Source: Mesodorylaimus sp. YZB2_4 (Eukaryota > Nematoda > Enoplea > Dorylaimida > Dorylaimidae). From it: 64,000 bases of DNA. Of the stretch, positions 21,305-56,918 are shown piece after piece (position 1 is the stretch's first letter; each line of letters opens with the position of its first letter). The position numbers and the translations under genes were made by a program. The notes below the pieces were generated by a model. That model ran no database searches. It had not been told where the DNA came from and saw nothing but the letters and a program-made list of their open reading frames with translations. The DNA is taken from the NCBI GenBank assembly GCA_030248295.1, contig JASANH010001652.1, forward strand, positions 124,001 through 188,000. Reading direction: 5' to 3'.

Positions 21305-22242
21305 TCAATGAGACATAATCGGCCGAGCTGCTGTCGCCTTGATGGTCGACCTTACTTCGGGTGTTTTTGACATTTGAATTGAGATCGAATCGCTTCGTAT
21401 GACCATGCTGGGTATTTGGACTGTAGTTGATCTGGTCGACGGGGTGATGCTAGCCACACTTTGAGACACCTGAGGTGTTTGAGAGATGGATGCCGACGAC
21501 TGCGATAGGTCCATTTCTTCGTAGGTATGCGACGCGGTGGGCCCTGCGGGCACGGTGACAGTAAACATTTGATGGTGGATGCTCTGCAGCACAGGCGGAA
21601 TGACACTGATATTCGGATCAATCGGAGCTAATTTAGACGTTACGTAGTCGGACGGTTTCAAATAAACGTCCTCGTCATCTTCCGTTGATCGACCAGGGCT
21701 AGAAAGGAAACCAAAGCCATAAATGGGATTGCTCTCAATGTGCTGACACGCAAGCGGGACCTGGCTTACCTCTTGGCTGTCTTCAGATTGTGCTGCGACA
21801 CTGATACATCCATTCTGAGTCCCTTATTTGACGGATTCGCCTGTGCCACTGTGCCAATCTTATTCCGACCATCAAATTTGCTTTAAAAGCAAACAATTTC
21901 TTTTGCCGGGGGTCACAAAGTTACAGCCCTTACGTACCCACGCAAATCACCATCCTTATAGTGTTCACCGTCAGCACCCTTCGCTTGAGCTCGCGTTGCT
22001 GGAGCTTGTGAAAACGACGATGTCGAGCTAGAGCATCCATCCCTTTCCACGTCGATCTGTTTCTTTCCGCCTTCTGCCACCCGCTGTTTGCTTTTGCAAC
22101 ACACACAGAGAATTAACGCCATGCTTGGTACAACGAGTAGGACGCAGACAGAAATGAGGCTGATTAAGAAAATTGGTGAGCTTGAGCTGTCCAGCCATAT
22201 CGAATCGTCCCACGAGCCAGTCTCCCGCAACACGGCAACCAT
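21305..22242 (-). CDS. Single-pass membrane protein, tandem paralogue 2 (unrecognised family)
   Basis: I do not recognise this family. Exons are 22242-21938, 21814-21770 and 21698-21305; both introns are phase 2, giving 247 residues. The N-terminus (about 25 residues, MVAVLRETGSWDDSIW) has no cleavable signal. One membrane segment follows at about residues 24-50 (IFLISLISVCVLLVVPSMAL) and ends in a Cys-rich, basic juxtamembrane stretch (CVCCKSKQR), suggesting an outside N-terminus and a cytoplasmic tail. The tail carries an acidic-tyrosine motif TEDDEDVYLKPSDYV (Tyr near 129 and 135), the core KLAPIDPNISVIPPVL, and HTYEEM near 176, then a Ser/Thr-rich end. The same motifs, order and intron phases occur in the neighbour at 22970-24133. 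YEEM fits the YxxM type bound by SH2 domains of PI3-kinase; that role is inference. The start Met could lie upstream; a splice acceptor precedes it by about 45 nt. Confidence 0.68.
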
Positions 22243-22558
22243 GCTCGAACCATGCGCTTTGTGGACTGGCACCAAGTCTGCCGGTTGTCTGATGGTAAGT
22301 ACACAGCGTGCTTTACACTGCCAGGCTTGATGTCTTACAGGCACACTTGGTGGTTGGCTGGCTGAGGCATTACTATAAGTACCAGCGACCTCTTACGTAC
22401 ATCCGAAGAAATTTTTGCTTGACTTTTTACTCCTCTAAAGCGCATTTGCTGTCTTTCTTGAGGAAGTATCAACGTAAGCATGTACAATTACGTGCACCAC
22501 CACAAATTTCGCGTCAACGCAGATTTCATACCGCCATAAAAACACCAAGCAAAGGCAT

Positions 22559-22571
22559 GGGGGGGGGGGGG
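22559..22571. repeat. G13 homopolymer
   Basis: Thirteen consecutive G, next to the 3' end of a minus-strand SINE. One of three long G/C runs in the window. Confidence 0.9.
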
Positions 22572-22690
22572 CGAAGGGACAAATTATACGCGAAACGATG
22601 TGCCGGGCCAGGAGTCGAACACTCGATCGTAACTGGGCACCTGGCGCGAGAGGCAGACGCCTAACCCACACCAGGCCATTAAGCCGGTAT
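22572..22690 (-). mobile_element. tRNA-derived SINE fragment (family 2, minus strand)
   Basis: Read on the minus strand, the segment has an A-box-like GTGGGTTAGGCGTCTGCC and the B box GTTCGACTCC (plus strand 22611-22620, GGAGTCGAAC). It resembles the copy at 39.25 kb, which has GTGGGCTATGCGTCTGCC and GTTCGACTC. The ends do not form a proper acceptor stem, so it is read as a SINE head, not a tRNA gene. It lies between the two tandem membrane-protein genes. Confidence 0.6.
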
Positions 22691-22969
22691 CAGCCACGGG
22701 CTGAGTTGGTATGTTATCAACCCAAGTTTACCTTCGGCACTGTTTCCGGTACTATCGTTTATCACCTCACAAAATGAATAATCAAGTTAGAAAAGGGACC
22801 AGACGCTTAGTGTACATGTACATATACTGGACTGCAGGTGCGAGTACTGCATATATTTCTTGATACTTCCTGCATATCTACAAAATAATGAGGCATTTTC
22901 TCCTTTTGATCGTATCGTTGACATGGACAGGGCCAATACTCCAATCCTACGCCACACTCGACATCACCT

Positions 22970-24133
22970 TCATCGCCCTGAGATCATGCGTTTTTTCTTT
23001 CTGTCACTTGACGCTCTCTTTTTTTTCTCGCTTCTCATTCTGGTTTTCTTTGTAACTTTTACCTTTTTAGTCTTCTTATCTCTAGCAGCGGATTGCTTTG
23101 TGGTCGTTTTCGCTTCGCTTTTCTTGACTGTTTTGGCGGTAGACTTTTTCCCTTTTTTGCGCCTATTTTTCATCGTAGTTTTGCGGGCAGGTTTTGCTTT
23201 AGGCTTTTTCTTCACGATCACAGTCGGCTGTCCCTTAGAAAGAGTAGTCGTGTGAGGACTGACACTGGCGATGGGTGGAGCGGTCAAATTCGGAGCAGAC
23301 GTTTGATTTGCAGAGACTTCAGCCGATTTTGAAGAATTCAAAGGCTTCAGTGAGGACGGAACATCTTCGTAAATATGCAGATCACGGACGCAGTCTTTTT
23401 GAACGATCGACGCATTTTGTAGCAGCAACGGCGGAATAACCCTAACGTTCATGTTGATGGGAGCCAATTTTTCCAGCACGTACGGACGCATTTTCAAATA
23501 GATTTCGTCGTCGTCTTCCGAAAGTGTAAGTGATGCAATTCTGAAAAGATTCAAAGACATTAGCCGGAATCTTCGGTATGTTTTGCTTACTCATACGTTT
23601 CGAGGTCCAATTTTTTTATTTTTGATACTGGCACGCTCTTCGGCACGTCATTCGCCTTGTTCTTCTCGACTTTCGCCGCCACAATTTCGGAACTATGATA
23701 AAAACGAGCAATAATGCGCATAAAACGATCTGATTTTGGTTTTGAAATGTCAAAACTCGCCAGCTCACCGTTTTGGACTCAGCGGTTCCTTCAAGTCCGT
23801 GCTGAAGCCTACAGGCACTGACTGTACAAACTTTTGGTATTTGCTCGGCGATTTTGGTACAATTATAGATATTGATTGAATTTTCTCCGATTTCAGTTTC
23901 TCTGGCAACGGTCGGCGCATCGATGTACCACTACGCTCTCCAGATAAATCTCCAGAAGCTACAGGTTGCTCTTGGATGCGCTTATGGCCCCGCTTACAGC
24001 ATGCACATGCCACTGAAACTGCCATCAAGGAAACTGCGACAATAATGGAACTGATTGCGGCAATAATCATTGAATTCGTCGACGTTGAATCGCCACTTAA
24101 GTTACTGGCCTCCACACTGAAGATCGGGGCCAT
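22970..24133 (-). CDS. Single-pass membrane protein, tandem paralogue 1, Lys-rich tail (unrecognised family)
   Basis: I do not recognise this family. Exons are 24133-23769, 23692-23591 and 23540-22970; both introns are phase 2, as in the neighbour, giving 345 residues. A 20-residue N-terminus (MAPIFSVEASNLSGDSTSTN) precedes one membrane segment at about residues 21-46 (MIIAAISSIIVAVSLMAVSV), then CACCKRGHKR. The tail holds SEDDDEIYLKMRPYV (Tyr near 170 and 176), KLAPINMNVRVIPPLL, and HIYEDV near 213; the order and spacing match the paralogue. Unlike the paralogue, the last 90 or so residues are very Lys-rich (for example KKKPKAKPARKTTMKNRRKK), ending in ISGR. That tail could bind acidic lipids or nucleic acid, or act as a nuclear signal if released; this is speculation. 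The membrane topology is inferred from charge (positive side inside). Confidence 0.7.
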
Positions 24134-25526
24134 GCCTGCAGCCGCTGTTCAGGAGCCACCGAGGGGTGAATGTACAAAATATATAAGCCACTGTCGAGCA
24201 GCCTTGCGTCCTATCTGCTGCACACTGCGACCATTGTAGACACTGTACAATCCTTGAAAAGTAGAGTAGACCAGCCGCTATGCTGTGCTCTGGGCTCCAC
24301 ATCATTGATGCTCATTTTCGTTTTCTTCCATGTCCTTATGTAGTGAAGCGTGCGAAGTGAATTTGGCTCCACAGCATCTTTGCGCCGCCGCAAATATTTG
24401 TTGCAGAGACTGAGTATGAAGACTTTTCATATTCAGCAGCACACTAAATCCAAATTTGGATCATGTGTGTACAGTATTTCCAACCTCGCGAATTCTGTCG
24501 CTCGAGTAGCCAGGCTTTTTATCAAAGCCTTCAGTACTGCACATATGTGGTTTAGGTTTGATAAAAAAAGGGCGTTCCCAGTGTCTGCATAATCTTTTTC
24601 GCTCGGGTGGACTCTTGTACGGCATGGCTTGACATGCCGCCAGGCATCAAGTTGACAAGTCTTATCGAACACACCACCGCCTGCGTTCATTCTCATTAAT
24701 TCTTGGTCCCTCGTTAAGTTTGTCCGAGTGAGCATTGCCCAATGTCTACGTGATGCTCGATCGCATTCTTAGCCAATGTTCCTTTAGCGGATCAAAGTGA
24801 AACGACCTATGCTCAGTGCGATTATGCTTGATCAATAGCAGGTCGCAAGGATAAGTGAATGCAAAACGGACGGAAAAAATTGTTCCTTTCCATGCGGGTG
24901 TCATCAAAGCCAAGAAGGTTTTTCTGTGAGTGTCGTATCTCTCGATGCATACGACAGTTTTTATTGAGTGCGCCTGCTTCTACCCTTCCCATGTAGCTGA
25001 TATGTACCCGCTTTTGCTGATTCTCTAAATGAAATGGCGAAGTTAAATTGAGAAAATCGACGGCACAAGCAATTGAATAATTTTAAATCATCTTGTCTGG
25101 GATCTGCGTTTTTTCTGTTAACGCACAACCGACTGGCAAAGTGACCTTTTCTCAACGACATAAATTTGAATTAAAGATTAGTCGGCGTCTGGATAGCTTC
25201 GCTCGGTTTGGTCGGAGTAGAAACGGCAGGGGTGACTGCCTAGCAGGCTAATGGATATTTCTTGTTGGATGGGTGTATGGTTAGTCCTTTAATAACGTCT
25301 CAGCGACGCAAGGCCAGGCTTGGAAAGCAGGATACGTAGGCCACATGTCACGGTCAGGTTGGGAATGTTATAAGTATGCTGAGCAAAAAAATTAATGCAA
25401 TGTGTGGCTCTAAGATGTTTCGATCACGCGTTGAATGGAAATATTCTTTACGGTTCTTTTGCTAAATATACAGTAAGTGTCAGTCAGCAGCTGACTCGGA
25501 CTTGCCAACTTTTTTACCTTTTCAGA

Positions 25527-42492: not shown

Positions 42493-43271
42493 TTAATAGG
42501 AACGAGGTTGAGGGTTGCCACCTTCGTAGCCCTGTTGTTGTTGACCGTATTGAGGCGCTGGGGCCGGCGGCAGCTGCTGGCTACCGTGCCTGCGCTTGGA
42601 CATGGATCGAGGTCCGTTCTGAGCTATTTGAGAGCCCTGATACATAGGAGCCGCGCCTTGAGCGCCGTATCCACCTTGGCCCATATGTCCGCCACCGCCG
42701 CCGCCGAACCCCATGGCCTGCGGATTCGCGACGCCACCTCCAGGTTGCATTGCCGCCATTCCGGGTGTCTGCCCGTGCATTGGTCCCATGGCCTGCGGAT
42801 TCGGACTTGGTTGCATCGGTGCCATACCCCGAGGATCGCCAGTCGCTCCCATTGGATATCCGCCCATAGGGGGATGGCCTTGACCGTATTGAGGATAGCC
42901 GCCCATGACCGGACCACCCATACCTGGAGGATATCCACCCATGGCCGGATTCATGCCGAAACCCATCTGCGGATCGTAGCCAGCGCCCATTCCGAATCCC
43001 ATTCCTGGTCCTGGTGCGCCACCACCGAAATGCCCGTAAAAGCCGTAACCGCCAGGACCGAATCCAACGCCACCGTAGCCGCCTGGGGTGTATAGTTGGC
43101 CATAGCCTTGTCCACCGTGCCTACCGCCGCGATTGTGCATTCCGGCGGAGCTTTCAAGCAATACTAGCACCAAGCACAGCTAACGCACTCACGAATGACA
43201 GGCTGATAGGGAGCAAGAAGGCTGGACTAGTTTGCATTGCCGGATACCCTGCTGCCCGTTGGACTGTACAT
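42493..43271 (-). CDS. Predicted secreted Gly/Met/Tyr/Pro-rich low-complexity protein, 2 exons
   Basis: I propose two exons, 43271-43248 and 43179-42493, with a 68-nt intron, encoding 236 residues. The first exon gives MYSPTGSR; the second continues LCLVLVLLESSAG, so a classical signal peptide (basic start, hydrophobic core, small residues at the cut) appears only after splicing. The mature protein begins near MHNRGGRHGGQGYGQ and is almost entirely low-complexity: repeated GYGG, GFGMG, MGGYP (four or more times), NPQAMG, and a Gln/Pro-rich end (PQYGQQQQGYEGG). There is no Cys. Such composition fits structural secreted proteins (cuticle, eggshell, silk or glue) or phase-separating proteins; which one is unknown. 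A minus-strand TATATA at 43379-43384 lies about 108 bp before the ATG. The second exon frame is firm; the first exon is inferred. Confidence 0.66.
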
Positions 43272-55042: not shown

Positions 55043-56918
55043 TATTGTTTATAAGATAGATAGGAAGGTTATATGCTTGCTTTTGTGTGATTGGTATGAA
55101 TGACAGAATAGACTGGTTAATCCTTGAAATACCTCGGCTATTGTTGAAGCATAGAGCAGATTGGTTCCCCTGGGTGCTTTATCCACAGTCAGCAAGGATC
55201 CTATCTAAAATGTACCACGACCCTGCCAGCAAGACACTGGAATTAGCTTTGACATCAGGAGTGGACCTAATATGGCTAATTGGCAAGAGGCTAGAAATGA
55301 CAATCTTGCGTGTGGTGTGTATCGGGTGCGCTATAAAGAATGACCCTGTAACATTTTGTCTTCTACGGGCCTTATTAGGCAAGTTATCGCGGTAAATCTT
55401 ATACCATTGTGTTCAGCATTCAATTCTGAGTTAGCTTGGCCTATTTAATCTGCCAATACAGTATATTCACCATTATAGTAGTTTCAGATAGGGGTTTACT
55501 TTAGCTCAAGCAGTGGATGGGCGATTCTTGCAACCACACGTTCGCCAAAAATATGGCATTTTTAGCCATACAGTACCTGCTAAACTGATCAGCATTAAGG
55601 CATGGAAAACAGCAAGCAGACCACATATGCAGTACCACAGTACAAATCCTTGTCCCAATCAGAGGGCCATCAGGAACAGCGCAGGGTAGGGCGCCCTAAA
55701 CACGCGCTTGTGCGACTTTTACTCAAGGGTGTCGAGAGAATAGGCTAGTCAGTGGACCACAGATAGTAGAAAGGGGGAACTGGCACGCAGGACGCAGACA
55801 ATAGAACTGCAAGATGGGGTCTTTTCTTGAGGGCATGAGCTCTAGTCCCTCCATATACACAACGGCTATAATTATTTATCAATCCTGCCCTACGGTGGAA
55901 AGCTAGATATGTAACTTGGAGAAGAGAGCTAGCGATCCCGGACATTCCCTCTTATTCGTCTTTTGTTACACCTTCGGCTACCTCCTTAAATGACGAGCTC
56001 CCAATGACCAGCTTTGACCAAACCACCAAACCGGCCGAACCGAACCATGACCAAGCCGCTAGCCTACAGTATACCATTTCACACTGAGTGACAGTGCTAA
56101 AATAAATAAGTTATCAGTTCAAAAAGCTTCTGGTGAAATGGCATTGATAAACCAGGAACTATCCTGTGTGTCTCTTGATCTTCACTGCAATAGAACAAGC
56201 TGTTTAACTTTGCTACAACTTGTCTGTTCTAGCCTGACTGGCGGCAAGAAAACTGTCACCAATTTCGATCCTGGTTCGGTAAGAATAGCCCAGTTCGGCT
56301 CCTGGTCCAGCTACAAAAGCCGGTTCTGCCGAGCCTAGCCAATTGAGGCTGCGGCACAGATTGCTTCCTACTGGTCGGTATCTGTGCCACGGACATCTGT
56401 CAGTGGTGAGGAATCTACGGACAAAAATCGGGCATTTACGTTTTCGAGTGTGTACATGTTCGATCATTTTGGGAACTGGAGCTATTCCAATGCCAGTGGA
56501 AGGACTTTACGCGCCTGTTTATAAATGACACTTGCGCTCTTTTTTTGTCTGCTTTGCCGCTAACACCTGATTTTCTCATATGCAAAATCTAATAAAGAGA
56601 TGGGTACAAAAATAAAAAATATGAAGATTCAACAAAAAGGCAGCCTTATTCAGTGCGCACAATATTTAATTTTTAAGCTCCCGCCTTAAGAACAGTAAGC
56701 ACGTTAGAACCTGTGAGGACCATTCCAAAAAGACGTGGTGCGGCAGCAGCTGTGCGCAACTAGGCGCTCTGCGAAAAATTGCATTTTCATCGTTTCGTTC
56801 GACGAGCAAGACGATTTAGGAGAAAAGAATTGGATTTGGAATCTTTCGGCTGTTTCAGTCGAAGCTTTTAGATTTGACAGCCGATTTTTTCGCAAAATCC
56901 TCGAAAAGGCCGTTAAAT
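55043..56918. other. Intergenic region upstream of PSMA4
   Basis: This 1.9-kb AT-rich stretch lacks a recognisable gene. Several copies of TACAGTA/TACTGTA lie between 55.4 and 56.1 kb, with more in the PSMA4 first intron. The PSMA4 promoter should lie in the last few hundred bases. Confidence 0.4.

Follow-up and report, generated by a model that had tools for sequence, protein, structure and literature searches.

A six-gene nematode family of predicted single-pass membrane proteins with a constrained tyrosine module, and its possible role in phosphotyrosine docking

A 64,000-nucleotide stretch of the Mesodorylaimus sp. YZB2_4 genome (hereafter the window; C34:124001-188000, the whole genome amounting to 145 Mb on 1067 contigs) carries two adjacent minus-strand genes, A and B, with a similar tyrosine-bearing stretch in otherwise different tails. 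What are these proteins, and what might the shared stretch, here called the tyrosine module, do for them? Judged by the sequence comparisons described below, A and B belong to a real, constrained family of six genes, previously unlabelled within Pfam and PDB.

Gene A encodes 345 amino acids (aa) in exons at 24133-23769, 23692-23591 and 23540-22970, and gene B 269 aa in exons at 22242-21938, 21880-21770 and 21698-21305. With splicing read from the sequence, the introns measure 76 and 50 bp in A and 57 and 71 bp in B, and all four have GT-AG borders and phase 2. Exon 1 of gene A (23769..24133) encodes a MAP start, a 22-residue N-terminal part, a membrane segment (residues 23-41, 24011..24067, mean hydropathy 2.58) and a C-A-C-C-K-R stretch. 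Exon 1 of gene B (21938..22242) is an open reading frame (ORF) without in-frame Met upstream of its MVAV start, and its membrane segment (residues 29-47, 22102..22158, mean hydropathy 2.87) is followed by C-V-C-C-K-S-K. The net charge on the N-side of the segment is −2 in A and −3 in B, and that of the 15 residues after it is +3 and +4, respectively. Exon 2 (23591..23692 in A, 21770..21880 in B) encodes a linker and is phase 2 on both sides, while exon 3 holds the module together with a Lys-rich tail in A (22970..23540) or a Ser/Thr-rich tail in B (21305..21698).

Delimited by its conservation, the module runs from EDDDEIYLK to HIYEDV in gene A (23360..23518) and from EDDEDVYLK to HTYEEM in gene B (21512..21682), and it aligns as EDDDEIYLKMRPYVLEKLAPINMNVRVIPPLLL...HIYEDV in A against EDDEDVYLKPSDYVTSKLAPIDPNISVIPPVLQ...HTYEEM in B. 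The local alignment score of the two exon-3 products was 128, against a mean of 37.7 (sd 6.4, maximum 72) for shuffled sequences; since none of 1000 shuffles reached 128, the shared module is not a product of chance. Lys makes up 33% of the last 90 residues of A (44% together with Arg), and Ser/Thr 36% of the 69-residue tail of B. In a structure model computed with an alignment of two sequences, exon 3 of gene B was predicted to be disordered (mean predicted local distance difference test score, pLDDT, 49.7; predicted template modelling score, pTM, 0.11). A first-pass annotation had proposed two adjacent minus-strand genes with three exons and two phase-2 introns each, a short N-terminus, one membrane segment, a basic Cys-Cys stretch, a shared tail module and tails that diverge outside it. 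The coordinates, strand and introns agree with that proposal, as do the single hydrophobic segment with its acidic N-side and basic C-side, the alignment score and the tail compositions.

Is the pair alone in its genome? We searched the genome with the proteins of A, B, C28b and C1 and with a hand-made consensus, and built six gene models by hand. The module was found in six genes, namely A and B on C34, C28a and C28b in tandem and in the same order as A-B, and the single genes C42 and C1. The consensus recovered the six at E < 1e-6 and one further place at E 2.34, in whose DNA the module was not seen on inspection. Likewise, an hmmsearch with the module profile through 287 kb of fetched DNA (duplicates included) placed just these six above the inclusion threshold. 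Every member is built from three exons with two phase-2 introns and encodes a single membrane segment as well as C-x-C-C. Their 12 introns measure 50-76 bp, and 11 are GT-AG; the single GC-AG intron we infer to be the first one of C28a, through which the frame stays open. The membrane segment, called by hydropathy alone (one segment of at least 1.6 per protein), is preceded on its N-side by 22-28 residues with a charge of −1 to −3 and followed by a charge of +3 to +7 on its C-side, and the calculated masses span 26.0-37.8 kDa.

The exon-3 products of 14 of the 15 pairs scored above all of 1000 shuffles, and for C42-C1 one shuffle reached the score. Likeness extends to the N-terminal parts (no more than 2 of 500 shuffles reached the score in 14 of 15 pairs, and 36 of 500 for C28b-C1), although the membrane segment alone raises these scores. 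In the full-length protein tree, A, C28a and C1 separated from B, C28b and C42 (support 95/96; 93/95 with the module alone), a split drawn from six rows that carries a long-branch warning and whose clustering was equalled by 47 of 500 shuffled labellings. Because of this split, the two subtypes appear to be represented once each in either tandem pair, and most simply the pair would have arisen once and later been copied as a unit. When the flanks at the other loci (25 kb for C28 and 8.5-9 kb for each of C42 and C1) were compared with the window, the family genes matched; some other matches look like dispersed repeats (best E 2e-14, window 56063-56335 against L014), and synteny of C28 with the window was set aside. 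The tandem pair of the first-pass annotation therefore stands as a pair of duplicate genes, and not as an isolated one, since it is one of two pairs in a six-gene family.

Where does constraint lie within these proteins? Over 39-40 module codons, nonsynonymous divergence (dN) was 0.18-0.66 in the 15 pairs, whereas the C-terminal remainder gave 0.93-2.78 and the linker 1.02-2.54; the low module value is partly built in, because the module bounds were set by its conservation, and alignments elsewhere are poor. From the N-terminus to the cysteines, membrane segment included, dN was 0.61-1.17. Synonymous divergence (dS) in the module exceeded 1 in six pairs, was 0.67 in one and was not computable in eight. 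Because six homologues exist and dN is lowest in the module, duplication with selection on the module, as had been suggested from the pair, is supported. Invariant in all six members are one D, L-K, Y, K, P, L, H, Y and the cysteines (C, CC), and KLAPI and VPP are kept in most. Two of the three module tyrosines are invariant, in the motifs (Y/F)LKxx-Y(I/V) and H-x-Y-(E/D/Y)-(D/E)-(M/V/F/L). In the latter, position +1 is E/D in five of six members, and +2 (D/E) and +3 (M/V/F/L) hold in all six. A Y-x-x-M form, the basis of a YxxM/PI3K reading, occurs there in B and C28b; the idea is not general, because +3 is Met in these two of the six and another residue in the other four.

Pfam returned nothing over cut-off for A or B. 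Nine Pfam families were listed for the six proteins at E up to 1, the best at E 0.007 (FAM176, for one of the six); TMEM154, Prominin and the other Pfam names were rejected, being below cut-off where a cut-off was shown. The module profile had no match in PDB at E up to 10, and the B module alone drew one chain there at E 0.36. The earlier impression of no known family thus holds for A and B in Pfam and for the module profile in PDB, and these searches placed neither protein in a characterised family. A narrow search of one open library found no report of nematode single-pass proteins with SH2-related tails.

How might such proteins work? Gene structure, homology, topology signals, module constraint and predicted disorder are computed. 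A phosphotyrosine role of the module is plausible, with two of three tyrosines invariant, acidic residues at +1 and +2 and a hydrophobic one at +3. With a probability of about 0.42, we propose that A and B are membrane-anchored docking proteins, or scaffolds, in which phosphorylated module tyrosines dock SH2 proteins. The short N-terminus would lie outside, one helix would cross the membrane and the tail would lie inside. The juxtamembrane C-x-C-C beside Lys/Arg would probably be palmitoylated, and the disordered tail would present an acidic patch and then the two invariant tyrosines. A cytoplasmic tyrosine kinase may phosphorylate the module tyrosines, and SH2 proteins of the phosphotyrosine-acidic-acidic-hydrophobic type could then bind the module and assemble a signalling complex at the membrane. 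Each paralogue might gain a separate second partner through its divergent end, Lys-rich or Ser/Thr-rich. SH2 matches over cut-off number 75 in this genome, counted exon by exon and hence in fewer genes.

This layout resembles that of vertebrate transmembrane adaptors, described as having a short outer part, one membrane segment, CxxC in some and SH2-docking tyrosines (PMC2803307). By the same account, a juxtamembrane CxxC is present in LAT, LIME, NTAL and PAG and absent from LAX, SIT and TRIM (PMC2803307). Like LAT, PAG/Cbp, NTAL and LIME, all six family proteins have a short outer part and a single membrane segment. Their C-x-C-C contains CxxC and would probably be palmitoylated, and their long tail bears several tyrosines, two of them invariant and apparently in SH2-type context. 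Unlike those adaptors, the family has three cysteines instead of two and one conserved module of 50-60 residues, and it is from a nematode. No sequence relation to LAT-type adaptors appeared among the nine listed Pfam families, nor in PDB when the module profile was run to E 10, no direct pairwise comparison with LAT or its kind having been made. Most likely, the family would work like vertebrate LAT-type adaptors and yet be unrelated to them.

The genome searches also gave 40 distinct places with weak hits outside the six genes (hand count), of which 23 were inspected (L016-L020, L023-L040). At 17 of these (L016-L019, L023-L030, L032, L033, L035, L037 and L040) a frame encodes Met-Ala-Pro, a short head, a membrane segment (TM) and then C-x-C-C (16 places) or C-G-S-C (L027); we call them MAP-TM-CxCC genes. 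No in-frame Met precedes MAP in 13 of the 17, the exceptions being L027, L032, L035 and L037, and in 15 of the 17 residues 1-3 of the query lay outside the alignment that found the gene. Six places did not fit: L020 and L038 are without such a gene, L031 and L039 have other starts, and L034 and L036 begin with M-S-P and M-A-L. MAP-starting first-Met ORFs of at least 50 aa numbered 20 among 959 in the fetched DNA, and 18 of the 20 were these membrane genes, including five of the six family members. The tyrosine module was not seen in the 17 genes within the stretches examined. Their tails look mutually unlike, several being Pro-rich or Lys-rich. A Pfam scan of ten weak-hit proteins (eight MAP proteins, L031 and L039) gave none over cut-off. 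A and B with their four relatives look like one branch of this wider, fast-diverging gene set.

One of the set is L017 (L017:3261-3617, plus strand), a single-exon MAP-TM-CxCC gene for 118 aa that include N-E-Y-I-E-M, with a near copy in L016. Its C-terminal stretch, DPNYRSLVGVDNNF, resembles the DUF236 (PF03057) repeat at 18.7 bits, below the cut-off of 25; for the six module proteins themselves, DUF236 did not appear among the nine Pfam families obtained at E up to 1. As described in PMC8480184, DUF236 genes have their highest signal in sperm-related regions of Caenorhabditis elegans or Pristionchus pacificus. Taken with the L017 match, this faintly hints that the family may be used in the male germline, perhaps in sperm.

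Do these genes share more than their coding sequence? Upstream of gene B, at 22307..22321 on the minus strand, lies the element GCAGTGTAAAGCACG, with its core TGTAAAGC about 75 nt before the ATG. The core TGTAAAGT occurs at −72 to −80 of C28a, C28b and C42, TCTAAAGT lies further upstream in C1, and gene A has the copy GCAGTGTGCAGCAGA at 24214..24228 (minus strand), with a score of 9.8 where the threshold is 11. Using a matrix from nine sites, we scored the 250 nt that precede each of 17 held-out wider-set genes (L034, L036 and 15 MAP genes; L016 and L025 were dropped as near copies of L017 and L026). A score of at least 11 on either strand was reached by 12 of the 17, as compared with 4.3% of 6000 windows taken at random (binomial p 1.9e-13, a value weakened by the near-copies that remain among the 17 and by training sites picked by eye), and the reversed matrix scored in one of 17. 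The common upstream element suggests co-regulation. An operon of A and B was set aside, given a gap of 728 bp between them and the upstream element that B has of its own. The exact 12-mer AGTGTAAAGTGC has 433 copies in the genome against 34 of its reversed form, about 13-fold; examples precede the C42 gene (in L014) and a lectin-like gene (in L044). The 12-mer is possibly a promoter element, or possibly lies inside dispersed repeats. The bare core TGTAAAG was not enriched in the fetched DNA (59 against 68 reversed).

Several points weigh against the docking proposal and its germline extension, besides the way in which the module was delimited. The first module tyrosine, that of YLK, is Phe in C28b and C42, and hence not essential; the first-pass annotation, which listed YLK in the module, was right for A and B, and the tyrosine is no rule of the family. 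The last motif of C28a lacks the acidic residue at +1. The upstream element is weak at gene A, and it stands in forward orientation in only four of the 12 scoring held-out genes (L030, L032, L035 and L036). Of four sampled copies of the 12-mer, none was followed by an obvious start of a gene within the 1 kb seen on one side; a sperm regulon read from the 12-mer was rejected on this ground, despite the 433 copies against 34. Finally, the DUF236 match is sub-threshold and falls in a protein without the module.

Some of the same observations would suit a different role, one that we consider rather unlikely: sperm-surface or membranous-organelle proteins with charged, disordered tails, in which a fixed partner other than an SH2 protein binds the module and phosphorylation of the tyrosines plays no part. 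The conserved residues other than Tyr (LK, K, P and L, with KLAPI and VPP in most members) point to a peptide recognised as such, Phe can replace the first tyrosine, and the germline hints from DUF236 and the upstream element would fit. A precedent is SPE-56 of C. elegans, described as nematode-restricted and single-pass, whose cytosolic tail is disordered and which has a predicted palmitoylation site (PMC13070043). Its membrane segment, however, lies at residues 218-233 and is not N-terminal, and the tyrosine module does not figure in its description in the part of that source consulted (PMC13070043). What speaks for tyrosine docking instead is that two of the three tyrosines are invariant in all six members, in an SH2-type context, while most other positions vary.

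A second alternative, which we regard as improbable, starts from neighbouring genes. Vertebrate DAP12 pairs with natural killer (NK) receptors, and the family proteins could similarly be signalling chains with short heads, paired in the membrane with receptors of a C-type-lectin-like kind, a label that is a reading of residue pattern. Single-pass genes of this C-type-lectin-like kind (L013:2116-3288 and L013:7205-8305, minus strand) lie on either side of the C28 pair, one of them head-to-head with C28a and with HTYSNVPSSL in its tail, near the HIYEDVPSSL of A. The core TGTAAAG lies 76-137 nt upstream of four of the eight further lectin-like loci (L043-L050). However, such neighbours occur at one of the four family loci; the 33 genome matches of the C28 lectin-like protein miss C34 and C42 altogether and include a single one on C1, more than 600 kb away. 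The membrane segments of the six, moreover, contain no charged residue. Homology of the lectin-like tails to the module was not supported by 18 comparisons (three tails against six exon-3 tails), in which the lowest count was 4 of 1000 shuffles, the next 16 and the others at least 105. These lectin-like genes are expanded and apparently mostly intronless (33 matches at E up to 1, query included), and Y-S-N-(V/L) follows acidic residues in the tails at five of the eight loci. For the two C28 members, Pfam gave no lectin family at E up to 1; the nearest PDB sequence of one was struthiocalcin-1 (E 0.03).

The docking proposal can also be set beside known sperm systems. SPE-12, SPE-19 and SPE-29 of C. 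elegans are given as single-pass proteins of 255, 300 and 66 aa (PMC10136096). Mutations in spe-12, spe-19 and spe-27 are reported to upset the membrane localisation of SPE-8, an SH2 tyrosine kinase; with a spe-29 mutation this localisation is near normal (PMC4105102). Compared by description only, these proteins resemble the family in being nematode and single-pass. In Ascaris sperm, MPOP is described as an integral membrane protein that is Tyr-phosphorylated at the leading edge, recruits a kinase and nucleates assembly of major sperm protein (MSP) (PMC4105102, PMC3203103), and its C. elegans homologue was yet to be found as of 2014 (PMC4105102). We think it highly improbable that the family consists of MPOP-type sperm organisers, in which module phosphorylation would mark the leading edge, recruit the kinase and start MSP assembly, with the wider set as a diversifying kit of docking tails under one promoter element. 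The likeness is one of described function, and MPOP has 48 kDa, outside the mass range of the six. An EVA1 (FAM176)-type adhesion or guidance co-receptor is hardly credible: B matches PF14851 at 16.6 bits (E 0.007), against a cut-off of 31.5 bits, over residues 26-138, outside the module and in one of six members, and a lectin-like protein also matches weakly (E 0.21), so the match is probably to the membrane segment and basic stretch.

Elsewhere in the window, nine of ten frames scanned with Pfam matched LicD, anoctamin (two frames), EF-hand, Ras-like, NTP_transf_7 (presumably of TENT5/FAM46 type), PDE, Myb/SANT and UVB_sens_prot, none of them in common with A or B. A Gly/Met/Pro-rich low-complexity frame at 42496-43179 (minus strand), with a possible signal-like start, had no Pfam match at E up to 0.001. 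Across the genome, PF01060, which we take to be the nematode-restricted TTR-52 family, had 27 matches, all over cut-off, against none in 14 control genomes; these are no test among animals, because they are also without SH2 matches. TTAGGC-type repeats, presumably nematode telomere units, are visible in L018, and the genome was taken to be that of a nematode.

Taken together, this work adds an unnamed nematode family whose members are predicted to be membrane docking proteins and share a tyrosine module under strong constraint. Nematode sperm are reported to have many SH2 tyrosine kinases, with 29 SPE-8 paralogues in C. elegans (PMC4105102). If the germline reading is true, the module would be a concrete test peptide for SH2 binding, and membrane substrates of the sperm kinases would become testable. 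If it is false, the family would still be a clean case of a short motif kept amid divergence.

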